Positions 16,776 through 33,067 of a stretch of DNA of 35,709 nucleotides are shown one piece after another. A program made the translations under genes and the position numbers. The DNA is from Deltaproteobacteria bacterium (GTDB taxonomy: Bacteria > Desulfobacterota > Dissulfuribacteria > Dissulfuribacterales > JALVPX01). The first letter of the stretch is position 1. Every line of letters begins with the position of its first letter. The stretch lies in the NCBI GenBank assembly GCA_027023445.1, contig JALVVK010000082.1, forward strand, positions 1-35,709, read 5' to 3'. The notes beneath the pieces were generated by a model that worked only from the letters and a program-made list of their open reading frames with translations, ran no database searches and was not told the origin of the DNA.

Positions 16776-17366
16776 ATGGGAAAAAACAGAAAAAACGAGT
16801 TCATCTCCACTTCAGAGGCAAGCAGGCTTTGTGGAGTAGCCAGAACAACTGTTTCGAAGTGGATAGATGAAGGCCTGCTCAACGCCTTTGTGACACCAGG
16901 CGGACATCGCAAGATCGAAAGGGCGGACCTGAAGGACTTTATTGAAAAACATGGACTGGCTCCAAAGGCCAGAACATTCGAGGAAGGGTCAAAAAAGAAG
17001 ATACTGGTTATAGACGACAATCCCGATGATATCAGGCTGGTCCAGGCGGCCTTCCTGGCGGCACAGGACAAATATGAGGTTCATTCCGCCACGGGCGGCT
17101 TTGAGGCGATCTACAAGATCGGCGAGATCAAGCCGGACATGGTTGTTCTGGATATTGTGATGCCGGACATGGATGGATTTTCCGTATGTAAAAATATCAA
17201 AAGCAATCCCATAACCAAGGGGATAAAGGTTATTGCTGTCACTGCCTATCCGGACGAAGAGAAGCGGGAAAGGGCGCTCTCCTTCGGGATAGAGGCCTTT
17301 TTTACCAAGCCGCTGGACCTGGAGGCGTTAGTCAAAAAGATGCTCAGCCTGCTGGAACAAAAATGA
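16776..17366 (+). CDS. HTH-REC response regulator (N-terminal excisionase/MerR-like HTH)
   Basis: A 196-aa protein that joins a DNA-binding domain to a phospho-receiver in the order opposite to most response regulators. Residues about 8-62 (STSEASRLCGVARTTVSKWI, then TPGGHRKIERADLKDFIE) form a MerR/excisionase-type helix-turn-helix. Residues about 73-193 form a receiver domain: acidic pair in ILVIDDNPDD, phospho-acceptor Asp126 in VVLDIVMPDMDG, Thr in VIAVTAY and Lys in FFTKPLD. The ATG at 16776 is chosen because AAGGAGG lies 7 bases upstream. It is the first gene of the operon and its stop overlaps the CheD-HDOD gene by 4 bases, so it is likely the transcriptional output or autoregulator of the system. 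The partner kinase is probably one of those downstream. Confidence 0.9.
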   Translation: MGKNRKNEFISTSEASRLCGVARTTVSKWIDEGLLNAFVTPGGHRKIERADLKDFIEKHGLAPKARTFEEGSKKKILVIDDNPDDIRLVQAAFLAAQDKYEVHSATGGFEAIYKIGEIKPDMVVLDIVMPDMDGFSVCKNIKSNPITKGIKVIAVTAYPDEEKRERALSFGIEAFFTKPLDLEALVKKMLSLLEQK

Positions 17367-18712
17367 ATTTCTTCGAAAAATCCTTTCTCATCTCCCCGGC
17401 GGAATTCTATGTAACCCGCGACCGGAACGCGGTTCTGGAGACCTACCTGGGATCATGCGTGGGAGTAACGCTGTATGATCCCGTGGCAAAGGTCGGAGGG
17501 CTGGCGCATATTGTCCTGCCCGACGGGGATGAAAAAAGAAAGGCGGTTTCCCCCGGCAAATACGCCACCTCGGCCCTGCCCCTGCTGACTGAAAAGACAC
17601 TTGAACTGGGCGCCTCAAAGAAACGCCTGGTAGCCAGGATGGCGGGCGGAGCGTCCATCTACAGGGATCTTAATCTCAACATCGGCCAGAGAAACGCGCA
17701 AAAAGCAAGGGAACTCCTGATTCAGGAAGGAATCCCGATCCTGGAGGAGGACATAGGAGGCAATTTCGGCCGGGTGCTGAGTCTGAAAATAGAGGACGGC
17801 GAGATCAGATTGAGACAGATCGGCCAGGGATTGCGTGAGGCTCCTTTTCCTGGCGTGGTCAGGGAGATAGAACCCGGGGACATACTGAGGGAAATCGACC
17901 AGATTCAGCCCCTGCCGGAGACCGTGCGCCAGGCGCTGGCCGCAATTGACAGCGAACCGACAGACAGCGAGGAGCTTAAAAAGATTATCTACCAGGACCA
18001 GGCATTGACAGCGGACATACTCAAGGTGTGCAATTCCGCCTGTTACGGATTTTCCAGGCGCATATCCAGCCTGAGCCAGGCTATCACCCTTCTGGGCCTT
18101 AAAACTGTAAAAAAAACGCTTCTCGCCCTGTCCCTGAAAAAGGTCCTGTTCCAGAAGATACCGAGCTATTCCCTCAGAACGGGAGAGATGTTCAGACACG
18201 CCCTGGCCTGCGCCTTCACTGCGGAACTGATGGCAAAGGAAAAGGGCCATGACCGTGACAGTGAGAAATTCTTCACGGCCGCCCTGCTGCACGACATCGG
18301 CAAGATAGTCCTGGGCCAGGTCGCCTTTGACAGGTTCGGCCTGGTCATGGACATGGTATTAAAGGGAAACAGGTCATTTATTGAGGCAGAGAAGGAAATA
18401 CTTGGCTATACACATCCACAGGTAGGGGCGCTGATAGCGCAGGAATGGAACCTCCCTCTCGTCCTGATTGAGGCTATCGCCTTTCATCATGAACCGGGAA
18501 AGGCACGGGCGGCGTCAGAGGTGGTGGCCGTAGTCCATGTCTCCAACGTGATATGTTCCATGTTGGGCATTGGCTGCGGGGTGGATGGCCTGGTCAATCC
18601 CGTGCGTCCCGAGGCATTATCCCTTCTGGCCCTGGATGGCAGGGCCGTAGACAATATTATCGAAAGGCTGCCTGAGGTGATGAAGCAGATCAAGCCCCTT
18701 GAAGCCGTTTAA
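17363..18712 (+). CDS. CheD-HDOD fusion protein
   Basis: A 449-aa two-domain protein. Residues about 1-160 are CheD, a chemoreceptor glutamine deamidase: ETYLGSCVGVTLYDP with catalytic Cys32, GGLAHIVLP with His49, KYATSALPLL, MAGGASIYRDLNLNIGQRN and EDIGGNFGRV. Residues about 170-445 are an HDOD domain (LPETVRQALAAID, DQALTADILKVCNSACYG, LSQAITLLGLKTVKKTLLAL, LLHDIGKIVL, HPQVGALIAQEWNLP), a signalling fold related to HD hydrolases whose partners are mostly unknown. The start overlaps the HTH-REC stop by 4 bases and the cheR-like gene follows after 9 bases. The fusion suggests that receptor modification is linked to an HDOD output. Both parts look intact. Confidence 0.93.
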   Translation: MNFFEKSFLISPAEFYVTRDRNAVLETYLGSCVGVTLYDPVAKVGGLAHIVLPDGDEKRKAVSPGKYATSALPLLTEKTLELGASKKRLVARMAGGASIYRDLNLNIGQRNAQKARELLIQEGIPILEEDIGGNFGRVLSLKIEDGEIRLRQIGQGLREAPFPGVVREIEPGDILREIDQIQPLPETVRQALAAIDSEPTDSEELKKIIYQDQALTADILKVCNSACYGFSRRISSLSQAITLLGLKTVKKTLLALSLKKVLFQKIPSYSLRTGEMFRHALACAFTAELMAKEKGHDRDSEKFFTAALLHDIGKIVLGQVAFDRFGLVMDMVLKGNRSFIEAEKEILGYTHPQVGALIAQEWNLPLVLIEAIAFHHEPGKARAASEVVAVVHVSNVICSMLGIGCGVDGLVNPVRPEALSLLALDGRAVDNIIERLPEVMKQIKPLEAV

Positions 18713-29449: not shown

Positions 29450-30226
29450 ATGAGATTCAGACCATGCATAGATCTCCATGAAGGCAAGGTCAAACAGATA
29501 GTAGGTTCCTCACTGAAAAAAGATAATCCCGGCGGGCTGGTGGAAAATTTTGTCTCCAGCCGGCCTCCGTCATATTACGCATCCCTGTTTAAAAACGACC
29601 GGCTCACGGGCGGTCATGTCATAATGCTCGGACCTGGCAACGAAAAAGCTGCCAGGGAGGCACTGAGCGCGTGGCCTGGGGGCCTGCAAATAGGGGGAGG
29701 GATCAATGCTGACAACGCTCCCTACTGGCTGGATCAGGGGGCTTCCGCGGTAATCGTTACATCTTACGTGTTCAGGGACGGTATCATCAAGATGGATCGC
29801 CTGAAAAAACTCCGTAATGCCGTTGGCAAAAACAGGCTTGTTCTCGACCTGAGCTGCAAAAAAAGGAACGGATCCTATTTTATTGTTACTGACAGGTGGG
29901 AGCGATTTACCAGGGTAAAAATTGACAAAAACACCCTTAATGAACTCTCCTGTCACTGTTCAGAGTTTCTTGTTCACGCAGCGCACGTTGAAGGCAAATG
30001 CCAGGGTGTGGATATTGAACTGATAAGGCTTCTGGCGGATCACAGCCCGATCCCCACGACCTATGCCGGAGGCGCGAAATCCATGAATGATGTACGCGCC
30101 GTAAAAAAGGCCGGAAAGAACCGTATTGACATAACCGTGGGCAGCGCCCTGGACATCTTCGGAGGAGTTGGGATAACCTACGAAGAGCTTGTCAGGTTTG
30201 TGTCAAAAAATGAAAAAACTGATTAA
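29450..30226 (+). CDS. hisA: Eukaryotic-type HisA (phosphoribosylformimino-AICAR-P isomerase)
   Basis: A 258-aa TIM-barrel isomerase of histidine synthesis that converts ProFAR to PRFAR. RFRPCIDLHEGKVKQIVGSS, the SSRPPSYYASLFKNDRLTGG stretch, GPGNEKAAREALSAWPGGLQ, IGGGINADNAPYWLDQGA, VIVTSYVFRDG, LVLDLSCKKRNG, EFLVHAAHVEGKCQGVD, TTYAGGAKSMNDVRAV and VGSALDIFGG together match the fungal/plant HIS6 form rather than the usual bacterial HisA. The usual bacterial catalytic Asp pair appears here in CIDLH and later motifs of the HIS6 type. No other his gene is in the window. It overlaps the L,D-transpeptidase gene by 17 bases, so the two are co-transcribed. Confidence 0.9.
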   Translation: MRFRPCIDLHEGKVKQIVGSSLKKDNPGGLVENFVSSRPPSYYASLFKNDRLTGGHVIMLGPGNEKAAREALSAWPGGLQIGGGINADNAPYWLDQGASAVIVTSYVFRDGIIKMDRLKKLRNAVGKNRLVLDLSCKKRNGSYFIVTDRWERFTRVKIDKNTLNELSCHCSEFLVHAAHVEGKCQGVDIELIRLLADHSPIPTTYAGGAKSMNDVRAVKKAGKNRIDITVGSALDIFGGVGITYEELVRFVSKNEKTD

Positions 30227-31142
30227 CTTGATTAACATCTTACTTATTTTCCTGACTTTCCTGTGGGCGATACAGCCCATACCGGCATGGGCCATGGACT
30301 GTTTCACCATGGAAAACGGGAAAACCGCCTATGGCAAAATTCTCAGGATAAAAACCACTCCCAATGATACACTTCTTGACATCGCCAGGCGTTACGACCT
30401 TGGATACAACCAGATCATTGGCGCCAATCCCGGTCTGGATCCATGGACACCAGGAACCGGCACTGAGGTCCTTGCGCCCAAGCTTTTTATCCTTCCCGAC
30501 TCCAGGCCGTCCGCCGGCATAGTTGTAAACCTTGCGGAAATGCGCCTGTACTATTTCAGGATAACGGATAACGGCAAGACAAAATTTTACACATGCCCGG
30601 TAGGAGTCGGGAGAGAAGGGTATGCCACCAGGCTCGGCATCTACATGGTACGAAGCAAGGCCATAGACCCCACATGGGTAGTACCGCCTTCGGTGCGCAA
30701 GGAATCCCCGGATCTTCCGGAAAAAATTCCGCCGGGGGCGGGAAATCCCCTTGGCCGGTATATACTCAGGTTTTCAAGGCTCCAGTACGGAATCCACGGC
30801 ACTAACCGGCCATGGGGCGTGGGAAGACGGGTCAGCCACGGCTGTATAAGGCTGTACCCGGAAGACATCGCGCAGTTATTCCCCCTGGTCCCTATAGGCA
30901 CATTGATCCAGATAAGTTATGAGCCTATAAAGGTTGGATGGGACAACAACAAATGCTATCTTCAGGTTTTCAGGGACTATGAAGGCAGAATAGATGATCC
31001 CTTTGCCCGGGCACTACTTGCTGTAAACCAGTGTGAGAAGGCGATCGGGCCATTAAAAATAGATCTTCGCAAAATAAAAAAGGCATTGAAAGAACAAAAC
31101 GGCATACCAGTAACTGTAGCCACTGGCACCCGGGAGGAATAA
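30210..31142 (+). CDS. L,D-transpeptidase (YkuD) with LysM-like region and signal peptide
   Basis: A 310-aa periplasmic L,D-transpeptidase. A signal peptide covers residues 1-28 with cleavage after IPAWA. A LysM-like segment follows (about 45-92: DTLLDIARRYDLGYNQIIGA), then the YkuD catalytic domain (about 103-238) with IVVNLAEMRLYYF, IHG (His196) and the active-site block RVSHGCIRLYPED, where Cys212 is the nucleophile. This architecture is that of LdtA/B/C and ErfK enzymes, which attach lipoprotein to peptidoglycan in enterobacteria. The start at 30210 is chosen for the signal peptide. It overlaps hisA and is convergent with the lipoprotein gene. Confidence 0.93.
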   Translation: MKKLINLINILLIFLTFLWAIQPIPAWAMDCFTMENGKTAYGKILRIKTTPNDTLLDIARRYDLGYNQIIGANPGLDPWTPGTGTEVLAPKLFILPDSRPSAGIVVNLAEMRLYYFRITDNGKTKFYTCPVGVGREGYATRLGIYMVRSKAIDPTWVVPPSVRKESPDLPEKIPPGAGNPLGRYILRFSRLQYGIHGTNRPWGVGRRVSHGCIRLYPEDIAQLFPLVPIGTLIQISYEPIKVGWDNNKCYLQVFRDYEGRIDDPFARALLAVNQCEKAIGPLKIDLRKIKKALKEQNGIPVTVATGTREE

Positions 31143-31154
31143 ACTAATTAAAAC

Positions 31155-31520
31155 CTATTTTAAAAGGCTCTTTTCAAAAATTCTTTCGGTCTTTCTGGCT
31201 GTTGCCTCCGCCTTGGCAGCCGCCTCGGTTGCCCTGTTGGTCGCGGCATCGGCCCTGTCCGCAGCTGCCGCCGCGGCGTGGGCGGCAGCTTCAGCCTTCT
31301 TCGCGGCAGCTTCAAGCCTTGAGGCCAGGTCTTCCAGCCTCTTTGTTGCCGCATCCGCCCTGGCTGCAGCCGCCTTTGACTCTTCTGATGCCTTTATGGC
31401 CTGCTTCATCAGGGCCTTGTCCTGGTCACTGGGTCCGCAGCCATGAAGCAAGGGAAACACAAAAAAGAAAACCAGAACGATAACCTTTAACGATTTTCTG
31501 ATGTCAGAATAAGTTTTCAT
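31155..31520 (-). CDS. Ala-rich coiled-coil lipoprotein, Lpp-like
   Basis: A 121-aa lipoprotein. The signal sequence ends in the lipobox LLHGC with Cys28 as the lipidated residue. The mature part is a long Ala/Lys/Glu/Arg coiled coil with an internal repeat (RADAATKRLEDLA and RADAATNRATEAA), ending KSLLK with a C-terminal Lys. Braun's lipoprotein and OprI are built the same way and are joined to peptidoglycan through the C-terminal Lys by L,D-transpeptidases. It is longer than those (about 93 mature residues against under 70). GAGGG lies 5 bases before the ATG. It sits between two YkuD proteins, so a role in tethering the outer membrane is a reasonable inference. Confidence 0.88.
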   Translation of the reverse strand: MKTYSDIRKSLKVIVLVFFFVFPLLHGCGPSDQDKALMKQAIKASEESKAAAARADAATKRLEDLASRLEAAAKKAEAAAHAAAAAADRADAATNRATEAAAKAEATARKTERIFEKSLLK

Positions 31521-32472
31521 GGATAACCCTCAACGCAAGGAATTAATACATATAATAATTATTATAACAGGGTTAATGTTTTGTCTGCAATGCCTCATCT
31601 TCTTCGCCCCGGCCCCCTGCCTGGGCCTATGCATACTGATTGACAAGGCGACTCACACACTAAGAGTCCAGGCATCAAAGGATCTCAAGTTCCCGGTATC
31701 ACTGGGAATCGACCCCGTATCTCCGAAACGCCACAGGGGAGATGGAGCTACCCCGGAAGGGCTTTATTATATAACATATATGAAAAAGAAAAGCAGATTT
31801 TATAAGTTTATCGGCATTTCCTATCCAAACATCATTGACGCATGGCTTGGAAAAAGGGCGGGAATAATTGGCATCCGGGATCAACAAAGAATTATCCAGG
31901 CCATATCACGCAGGACAACTCCGCCCCAGGATACCCCTCTTGGGGGAGAAATAGGCATTCATGGAGGGGGCGTGAGGCGAGACACGCAGGGAGTTGCGGG
32001 CATCGACTGGACCCAGGGTTGCATAGCAATGGAAGACCGGGACATAGACCGTTTATTTCCTCTGTGCAAACCGGGAATGCCCGTGATCATATACAACAGC
32101 AAGGCGGCCTTTTTTGACATGATGCGCCCATTTGCGTATCCTGTTGATCTCTGCGATAAGGGGCAGGAGCATGTCTCCAGACTGGGCTTCATCACCAGCT
32201 TTGGCCCGTCTCTTCTGACTCTGAAGGAATCAGACGACTTTAACCGGGCCATCAGGATAACGGTATATGGCAGGGGAACGGACCATCCTCCCACATGCGA
32301 GATTATTGATCGTAACGGTGACGGGAAAACAGATTTCAGGGACAAAATCATTGGAAAATTAGACGGCATCAGCGCCCAAAAGACCTATGGCGTCATGAAA
32401 AAAGAGATGGTCAGGGCGCTTTCAAAGGGGAAAATAAAAGGCTGGAGGCTACGGAATGGTCGCCTTAAATAA
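31519..32472 (+). CDS. YkuD-family protein, YafK/DpaA-like, with Ca-binding-type loop
   Basis: A 317-aa secreted or membrane-anchored YkuD protein. A hydrophobic N-terminal segment (about 11-38) is a signal peptide or anchor. The catalytic domain has IDKATHTLRVQ, GDGATPEGLYYI, GIHGGG (His148) and DWTQGCIAMEDRDIDRLF with Cys168. The TxGCIAM form is closer to the YafK/DpaA group, which in E. coli releases lipoprotein from peptidoglycan, than to the SHGCIR form of crosslinking enzymes. Near the C-terminus IIDRNGDGKTDFRD has a DxNxDGxxD calcium-loop pattern (264-272). The ATG at 31519 overlaps the divergent lipoprotein ATG; an internal ATG at 31576 is an alternative start. Confidence 0.85.
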   Translation: MDNPQRKELIHIIIIITGLMFCLQCLIFFAPAPCLGLCILIDKATHTLRVQASKDLKFPVSLGIDPVSPKRHRGDGATPEGLYYITYMKKKSRFYKFIGISYPNIIDAWLGKRAGIIGIRDQQRIIQAISRRTTPPQDTPLGGEIGIHGGGVRRDTQGVAGIDWTQGCIAMEDRDIDRLFPLCKPGMPVIIYNSKAAFFDMMRPFAYPVDLCDKGQEHVSRLGFITSFGPSLLTLKESDDFNRAIRITVYGRGTDHPPTCEIIDRNGDGKTDFRDKIIGKLDGISAQKTYGVMKKEMVRALSKGKIKGWRLRNGRLK

Positions 32473-33067
32473 CATTATCTGGCCGTTAGCGGCATATCTC
32501 CTCGGATCAATTCCATTTGGCCTTCTGATGGCAAAATCCAGGGGTGTGGATCTGCGGCAGCATGGAAGCGGAAACATCGGCGCCACCAATGTGGCTCGTA
32601 CTCTGGGAAAATCCTTTGGCCTTATGACCCTCATGGCAGACATATCCAAGGGGCTGCTGCCTGTTCTCGGATGCAAATTTCTGGGAAAGGATCTGATGAA
32701 TGTTCAATTCATACTGTCCCTGACCGGCCTTGCAGCGGTAGCTGGACACTGTTTTCCCGTATTCCTGGGCTTCAGGGGCGGCAAAGGCGTGGCTACCGCT
32801 GTTGGCGTATTCCTGGGGCTGTGCCCAAAGGCCCTTGCCTTTGCAGCCGCGGGTTTTATAGCCGTGGTTAAGGTCTCGGGCTATGTATCCCTGGGGTCCC
32901 TGAGCGCATCAGCAATCATGCCTGCGTTAATCCACATGTTCTGCCCCGGCCACTTCGTTGAACCCATGGCCTGGAGCATTGCGATTATCATATGGTTCAG
33001 ACACCAGGATAATATCAGGAGGCTGTTTTCCGGGCAGGAAAAATCCTGGAAAAAGAGCGGTAAATAG
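32456..33067 (+). CDS. plsY: Glycerol-3-phosphate acyltransferase PlsY
   Basis: A 203-aa polytopic inner-membrane enzyme that acylates glycerol-3-phosphate with acyl-phosphate, the first step of phospholipid synthesis. The conserved motifs are all present: YLLGSIPFGLLMAK, HGSGNIGATNVARTLGK, and AVAGHCFPVFLGFRGGKGVAT. About five hydrophobic helices are visible. GGAGG lies 7 bases before the ATG, which overlaps the upstream YkuD gene by 17 bases. Its stop codon directly abuts that of the convergent ntrX gene, leaving no intergenic space. Confidence 0.96.
   Translation: MVALNNIIWPLAAYLLGSIPFGLLMAKSRGVDLRQHGSGNIGATNVARTLGKSFGLMTLMADISKGLLPVLGCKFLGKDLMNVQFILSLTGLAAVAGHCFPVFLGFRGGKGVATAVGVFLGLCPKALAFAAAGFIAVVKVSGYVSLGSLSASAIMPALIHMFCPGHFVEPMAWSIAIIIWFRHQDNIRRLFSGQEKSWKKSGK

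Follow-up and report, generated by a model that had tools for sequence, protein, structure and literature searches.

The window analysed here is a stretch of 35,709 nucleotides from a Deltaproteobacteria bacterium of the order Dissulfuribacterales (phylum Desulfobacterota), on contig JALVVK010000082.1 (C82) of assembly GCA_027023445.1, which spans 2.24 Mb and is 99.4% complete. It carries three adjacent genes, for an L,D-transpeptidase of the LdtA/B/C/E type, an Ala-rich lipoprotein of the Lpp/OprI alanine-zipper type that ends in Lys, and a second YkuD-domain protein with a DpaA-type active-site motif. A genome-wide Pfam search identified exactly two YkuD domains, those of the transpeptidase and the second YkuD protein of this locus, and a sequence search of the genome found no second copy of the lipoprotein.

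The transpeptidase, the proposed attaching enzyme, is encoded on the + strand at 30210–31142 (310 amino acids; translation could also begin at a TTG at 30189). It has a YkuD domain (30516–30914; Pfam match, 3.2e-24) with an SHGCIR motif (30834–30851, including Cys212 and Arg214) and a weak LysM match (20.1 bits, below the cut-off of 20.9). The lipoprotein, the proposed tether, is encoded tail-to-tail with it on the − strand (31155–31520; 121 amino acids), the two frame ends lying 12 bases apart. Its lipid-acceptor Cys28 (31437–31439) closes the lipobox LHGC and is followed by Gly, and its C-terminal Lys121 (31158–31160) is the proposed site of linkage to diaminopimelate. On the other side is the gene for the second YkuD protein, the proposed releasing amidase (31519–32472, + strand; 317 amino acids). 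Its annotated start codon and that of the lipoprotein overlap head-to-head in a shared CATG (31518–31521), which leaves no room for a promoter between the two genes; a later start is possible for the second YkuD protein. In relatives, there is a gap between these two starts. The YkuD domain (31633–32091; Pfam match, 4.1e-19) contains the motif TQGCIAM (32011–32031), with Cys168 and with Ala170 where the transpeptidase has Arg, and the C-terminal domain contains an EF-hand-like loop from Asp264 to Asp275 (32308–32343, + strand). Both motifs, the lipobox and the terminal Lys are as given in a preliminary description of this sequence, which named no strand for the lipoprotein.

The mature lipoprotein has 94 residues, of which 36% are Ala, and its hydrophobic heptad pattern was matched by 20 of 1,000 shuffles, in line with the Ala-rich coiled coil of the preliminary description. 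The Pfam Alanine_zipper model (PF11839) scored 22.7 bits against a cut-off of 23.1, its last profile position falling on the last residue of the protein, and the NCBIfam model ‘Lpp/OprI family alanine-zipper lipoprotein’ (NF040598) scored 30.3 bits against a cut-off of 43. NF040598 matches 34, and PF11839 27, of 41 relatives from the phylum, as judged at E 0.001 rather than against the curated cut-offs one by one. The model for Lpp proper (PF04728) gave no match to the window lipoprotein at E 0.1, and none is listed for the 41 relatives at E 0.001. Because the family-model scores of the window lipoprotein are too weak in themselves, its membership rests on its relatives and on gene order, and we classify it, from sequence, as a divergent Lpp/OprI alanine-zipper protein. 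The NCBIfam model already matches many such proteins, and individual members may bear that name in databases. A search of solved structures with the lipoprotein returned only designed or unrelated coils. A search of the order with NF040598 placed no genome above the cut-off; it was not used for counts, as it gave many coiled-coil false positives and also matched control genomes.

Conservation of the terminal Lys, on which the preliminary description had made its proposal depend, was borne out: Lys is the last residue in 84 of 86 homologous frames, which comprise the window, 21 further frames of the first set of loci and 64 taken from 60 loci across the phylum (many are close relatives and hence not independent; the truncated lipoprotein of genome G040 was excluded). 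One of the other two frames, from genome G001, ends in Arg, and one ends in Pro, probably because the frame is wrong. The conservation of this Lys far exceeds that of other positions. Within the order, it closes a near-invariant terminal box, K(T/M)ERIFEKSLxK. Across the phylum the box varies (for example, IFMKHMKK and AFELQQKK), with Phe at −7 and Lys at −1 retained. Such variable ends fit what has been described in one report (PMC12274547), in which Dickeya is shown to attach a Lys–Lys end and wide substitution is tolerated in the Lpp box. By itself, a terminal Lys is little proof, because the same report warns that it is found in more than 20% of the periplasmic proteins and lipoproteins of E. 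coli (PMC12274547).

The lipoprotein profile includes the terminal Lys and is thereby biased towards Lys-ended matches, which we sought to offset by also sampling from the transpeptidase side. Of 20 transpeptidase loci drawn from genomes in which the lipoprotein profile had no match, 14 encode a lipobox protein with a terminal Lys no more than 1.5 kb away; a further locus has candidates with other ends and the remaining five have none, the frames being recognized partly by weak profile scores. In G001 (90% complete), the Arg-ended homologue is on contig C55 (L083, 3155–3505) and the single YkuD domain found, which is of the second type, is on contig C19 (L090); this is possibly a natural case in which the attaching site was lost together with the enzyme.

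The genome encodes LolA and LolC/E for delivery to the outer membrane. In E. coli, an Asp directly after the lipid-bearing Cys causes retention of lipoproteins in the inner membrane. Retention in the inner membrane was the other point on which the proposal had been made to depend, and we found no such Asp in any of the 85 frames with a lipobox, although the retention rule may differ in this phylum.

Gene order is conserved within the order. The lipoprotein is present in 22 of 46 genomes and is tail-to-tail with the transpeptidase in 18 of these 22; the exceptions are G040, which is split by a contig end, G037, in which about 35 kb separate the two genes, and G001 and G029, in which the two are unpaired. 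A gene for the second YkuD protein flanks the lipoprotein on its other side in 13 of the 22, and all three genes occur together on one contig in 11 genomes. Eighteen genomes of the order encode the second enzyme in full-length form, and 17 of them also have the lipoprotein (Fisher P = 2.7e-7, uncorrected for kinship); the remaining genome, G032, has the enzyme at a contig end. Because plsY and two-component genes often follow, we take the neighbourhood to be inherited. In three genomes that lack the lipoprotein (G008, contig C267; G009, contig C90; and G016, contig C5; loci L094, L095 and L093, respectively), we observed two YkuD genes tail-to-tail, one of them for a short protein that is related to the second enzyme and carries GCIA.

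The pairing extends across the phylum. Of 395 genomes sampled, the lipoprotein is matched in 82 (E 1e-4) and an LdtE-type enzyme in 145 (E 1e-20). The two are within 1 kb of each other in at least 54 of the 82, and tail-to-tail in 37 of these. This is a lower bound based on rounded E-values, as the listed lipoprotein matches were compared with part of the listed transpeptidase matches, chiefly the better-scoring ones. By our estimate, chance would place such neighbours within 1 kb in well under 1% of genomes of a few megabases. All of the 19 strongest matches are tail-to-tail pairs. A gene for the second YkuD protein flanks the pair in five other families (L136, L137, L138, L140 and L147), and weaker YkuD neighbours occur at L175 and L176. 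At one locus (G253, L158, 7124–8465), three consecutive Lys-ended lipoproteins with mature lengths of 73, 115 and 150 residues lie beside a single LdtE-type gene.

Taking together the anatomy observed here, the conserved Lys and active sites, and the conserved gene order, we consider it probable that the locus encodes a covalent outer-membrane tether together with an attaching enzyme and a likely releasing enzyme. The preliminary description had suggested that one locus brings together a substrate, the enzyme attaching it and possibly one releasing it. This suggestion is supported in part: its core withstood both points on which it had been made to depend, given the Lys conservation, the absence of Asp after the lipid Cys in the frames examined and the presence of Lol components; the roles of the two enzymes are predictions. 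In the proposed mechanism, the lipoprotein would be exported, lipidated at Cys28 and delivered by the Lol system to the outer membrane, where it would form an alanine-zipper coiled coil, as its family and sequence suggest. The transpeptidase would then link the side chain of the C-terminal Lys to diaminopimelate in the stem peptides of peptidoglycan, as LdtA, LdtB and LdtC do with Lpp and as LdtPae2 does with OprI. In the last and weakest step, the second YkuD protein would hydrolyse the Lys–diaminopimelate bond as DpaA does, making the number of tethers tunable.

Several observations weigh against this reading. The window lipoprotein falls below both family cut-offs. The lipoprotein–transpeptidase pair occurs without an adjoining second enzyme in genomes G007, G025, G026 and G002, and G008 and G009, which are closest to the window within its family, have no lipoprotein match and carry another YkuD pair, suggesting that the module has been lost or replaced in places. 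LdtE, the enzyme that adjoins lpp in E. coli, is described as a cross-linker (PMC8263019). The second YkuD protein lacks DpaA residues Gln86, Lys130, Tyr131 and Met133 (the first three align with Arg, Gly and Glu in the window protein) and has an extra segment ahead of its active site. Its predicted fold (predicted local distance difference test (pLDDT) score, 84.4) is also tied with those of carboxypeptidases: Csd6 aligns with a Z score of 15.7 over 131 residues and Pgp2 with 15.2 over 128, compared with 15.7–15.8 for YkuD, and DpaA (8ikr) is absent among the matches listed.

These last points bear on whether the tether pair is real but the second YkuD protein instead trims D-Ala from tetrapeptides, like Csd6, Pgp2 and Bd1075, and would limit only the supply of donors. 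We regard this as unlikely, although far from negligible. The fold comparison does not separate amidase from carboxypeptidase, the GCxA motif is common to both activities, and a Lys at the position of DpaA Lys83, which binds diaminopimelate, is also reported in Csd6 (PMC10653827). Bd1075, Csd6 and Pgp2 are among the profile matches, but with values of 2.4e-5 to 8e-3 they follow DpaA (8ikr), which comes first at 5.4e-7. Lys83, Cys143 and Ala145 of DpaA are kept in 32 of 32 relatives, the position of Tyr109 is aromatic in 31 and that of Arg108 is basic in 28. The active site of DpaA is described as lacking the Arg (PMC8263019), and the GCIA of the second YkuD protein likewise lacks it. The Trp reported to form part of the carboxypeptidase D-Ala pocket (PMC10653827) is replaced by Gly or Cys in 31 of the 32, with Trp present in G005 alone, and the enzyme adjoins a Lys-ended lipoprotein. 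We place the second YkuD protein most likely with DpaA in function and do not assign it to the DpaA family. The corresponding NCBIfam model (NF040599, DpaA/YafK) scored 28.4 bits, below its cut-off of 365. The earlier placement of this TQGCIAM protein near DpaA agrees with the profile ranking and finds no echo in the fold comparison. The C-terminal domain is predicted to be beta-rich (pLDDT, 82.0) and has no confident match in the Protein Data Bank (best E, 0.77). The first and last Asp of its EF-hand-like loop are invariant in 18 homologues, and this domain is missing from the short relatives found elsewhere in the order.

Alternatively, the first enzyme may be an LdtE-like 3–3 cross-linker, with the lipoprotein a free periplasmic coil or otherwise unattached and the adjacency ancestral or regulatory. 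All six residues of the SHGCIR motif are invariant among 16 homologues, in keeping with a YkuD domain of the SxGChR type, and the best solved relative is 9tyw (7.7e-59). Similarity to the E. coli enzymes is nearly tied: BLAST gives 150 bits for LdtA, 139 each for LdtB and LdtC, and 135 for LdtE; a family-profile ranking gives LdtB, LdtA, LdtC and then LdtE; and the top NCBIfam model is LdtE. LdtPae2, which anchors OprI, is assigned to the ErfK/YbiS/YcfS/YnhG lineage, and lineage is reported not to tell anchoring from cross-linking (PMC10434034), so the predicted role of attachment is indistinguishable from 3–3 cross-linking by sequence. The cross-linking of E. coli LdtE beside lpp (PMC8263019) and the NCBIfam result favour the alternative, but BLAST and the family profile put LdtA, LdtB and LdtC at or above LdtE, conservation of the terminal Lys is far above that of the rest of the protein, and no other YkuD protein with a transpeptidase motif was found in the genome that might attach the lipoprotein. 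We consider this alternative improbable. Because no other YkuD protein of the genome carries the transpeptidase Arg, the enzyme may both attach and cross-link. That the genes are chance neighbours, with an Lpp-mimicking Ala-rich coil between two unrelated cell-wall enzymes, is very hard to credit: Ala-rich coils do generate spurious profile matches and the nearest family relatives of the window lack the module, but order, orientation and terminal box are conserved over many families, and both the pairing in the phylum and the transpeptidase-first sampling disfavour coincidence.

Flanking the three genes, hisA (29450–30226, + strand) overlaps the start of the transpeptidase gene with its 3′ end. 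Its product matches the eukaryote-type model TIGR02129 with 364.7 bits (cut-off, 229.3), far above the bacterial HisA model. At the other end, plsY (32456–33067, + strand; TIGR00023, 164 bits; cut-off, 137.2) starts before the second YkuD gene ends and is followed by genes for a response regulator and then a histidine kinase; we regard plsY as a conserved neighbour and do not think that it is part of the tether. Elsewhere in the window, a CheD domain is joined to an HDOD domain in one frame (17363–18712, + strand).

Lpp (PF04728) is described as present in about 3% of genomes, all within part of the Gammaproteobacteria (PMC8263019), and its restriction to a subclade of Pseudomonadota has been restated (PMC10260701). 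DpaA-like proteins are reported in many bacteria without Lpp, including Deltaproteobacteria (PMC8263019). Searches of an open-access library listed no earlier report of such a tether in this phylum. The locus described here offers a substrate for the DpaA-like proteins of Deltaproteobacteria, which are left without one in the published survey (PMC8263019): the DpaA-like protein adjoins an Lpp/OprI-like lipoprotein that the Pfam Lpp model does not detect. We tentatively suggest that a covalent tether of the Lpp/OprI type could be widespread and old in this phylum rather than a gammaproteobacterial invention. The lipoprotein would form a conserved, mostly tail-to-tail pair with its attaching enzyme, in a geometry still visible in lpp–ldtE of E. 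coli, and several lineages would have gained a YkuD amidase to give a write-and-erase tether locus; coil lengths, mostly 66–95 residues compared with 58 in Lpp, could set different distances between the outer membrane and the wall. Should the link prove real, covalent tethering of the outer membrane, together with its controlled release, would reach another phylum, the puzzle of the DpaA substrate would be eased and the gene pair would serve as a simple marker for such tethers elsewhere.

Among known systems, E. coli K-12 (NC_000913.3), which alone represents Gammaproteobacteria in our gene-order comparison, also pairs the gene of a small Lys-ended lipoprotein, tail-to-tail, with that of an Ldt from the same enzyme group: lpp (1757421–1757657, + strand) and ldtE (1757721–1758725, − strand) are neighbours 63 bases apart. 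The statement in the preliminary description that these functions are scattered in E. coli is therefore partly wrong; it holds for ldtA, ldtB, ldtC and dpaA, all of which are located away from lpp. The E. coli genome likewise encodes a DpaA-type YkuD protein, but its attaching enzymes lie elsewhere and the neighbour of lpp cross-links. Lpp has 58 mature residues and belongs to PF04728, in contrast to the 94-residue alanine-zipper lipoprotein described here. OprI of Pseudomonas aeruginosa, a species in which LdtPae2 and LdtPae3 are described (PMC10434034), is likewise an alanine-zipper lipoprotein with the same NCBIfam family name; the window lipoprotein is divergent and below the cut-off of that family. 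In that species, oprI may adjoin ldtPae2 (PA14_27180). The P. aeruginosa anchoring enzyme is of the ErfK/YbiS/YcfS/YnhG lineage and an SXGChA enzyme has been proposed for release (PMC10434034); P. aeruginosa has three YkuD proteins and the window genome two. With DpaA/YafK (8ikr), the second YkuD protein shares GCxA, Lys83, Cys143, Ala145, an aromatic residue at Tyr109 and GDxxTPEG and YPN segments. It differs at 25% identity overall, at the four residues not kept, and in the extra segment before the active site and the C-terminal domain with its EF-hand-like loop. It resembles Csd6, Pgp2 and Bd1075 in the fold of the catalytic domain, the GCxA motif and the two-domain build, and differs from them in the missing Trp of the D-Ala pocket.

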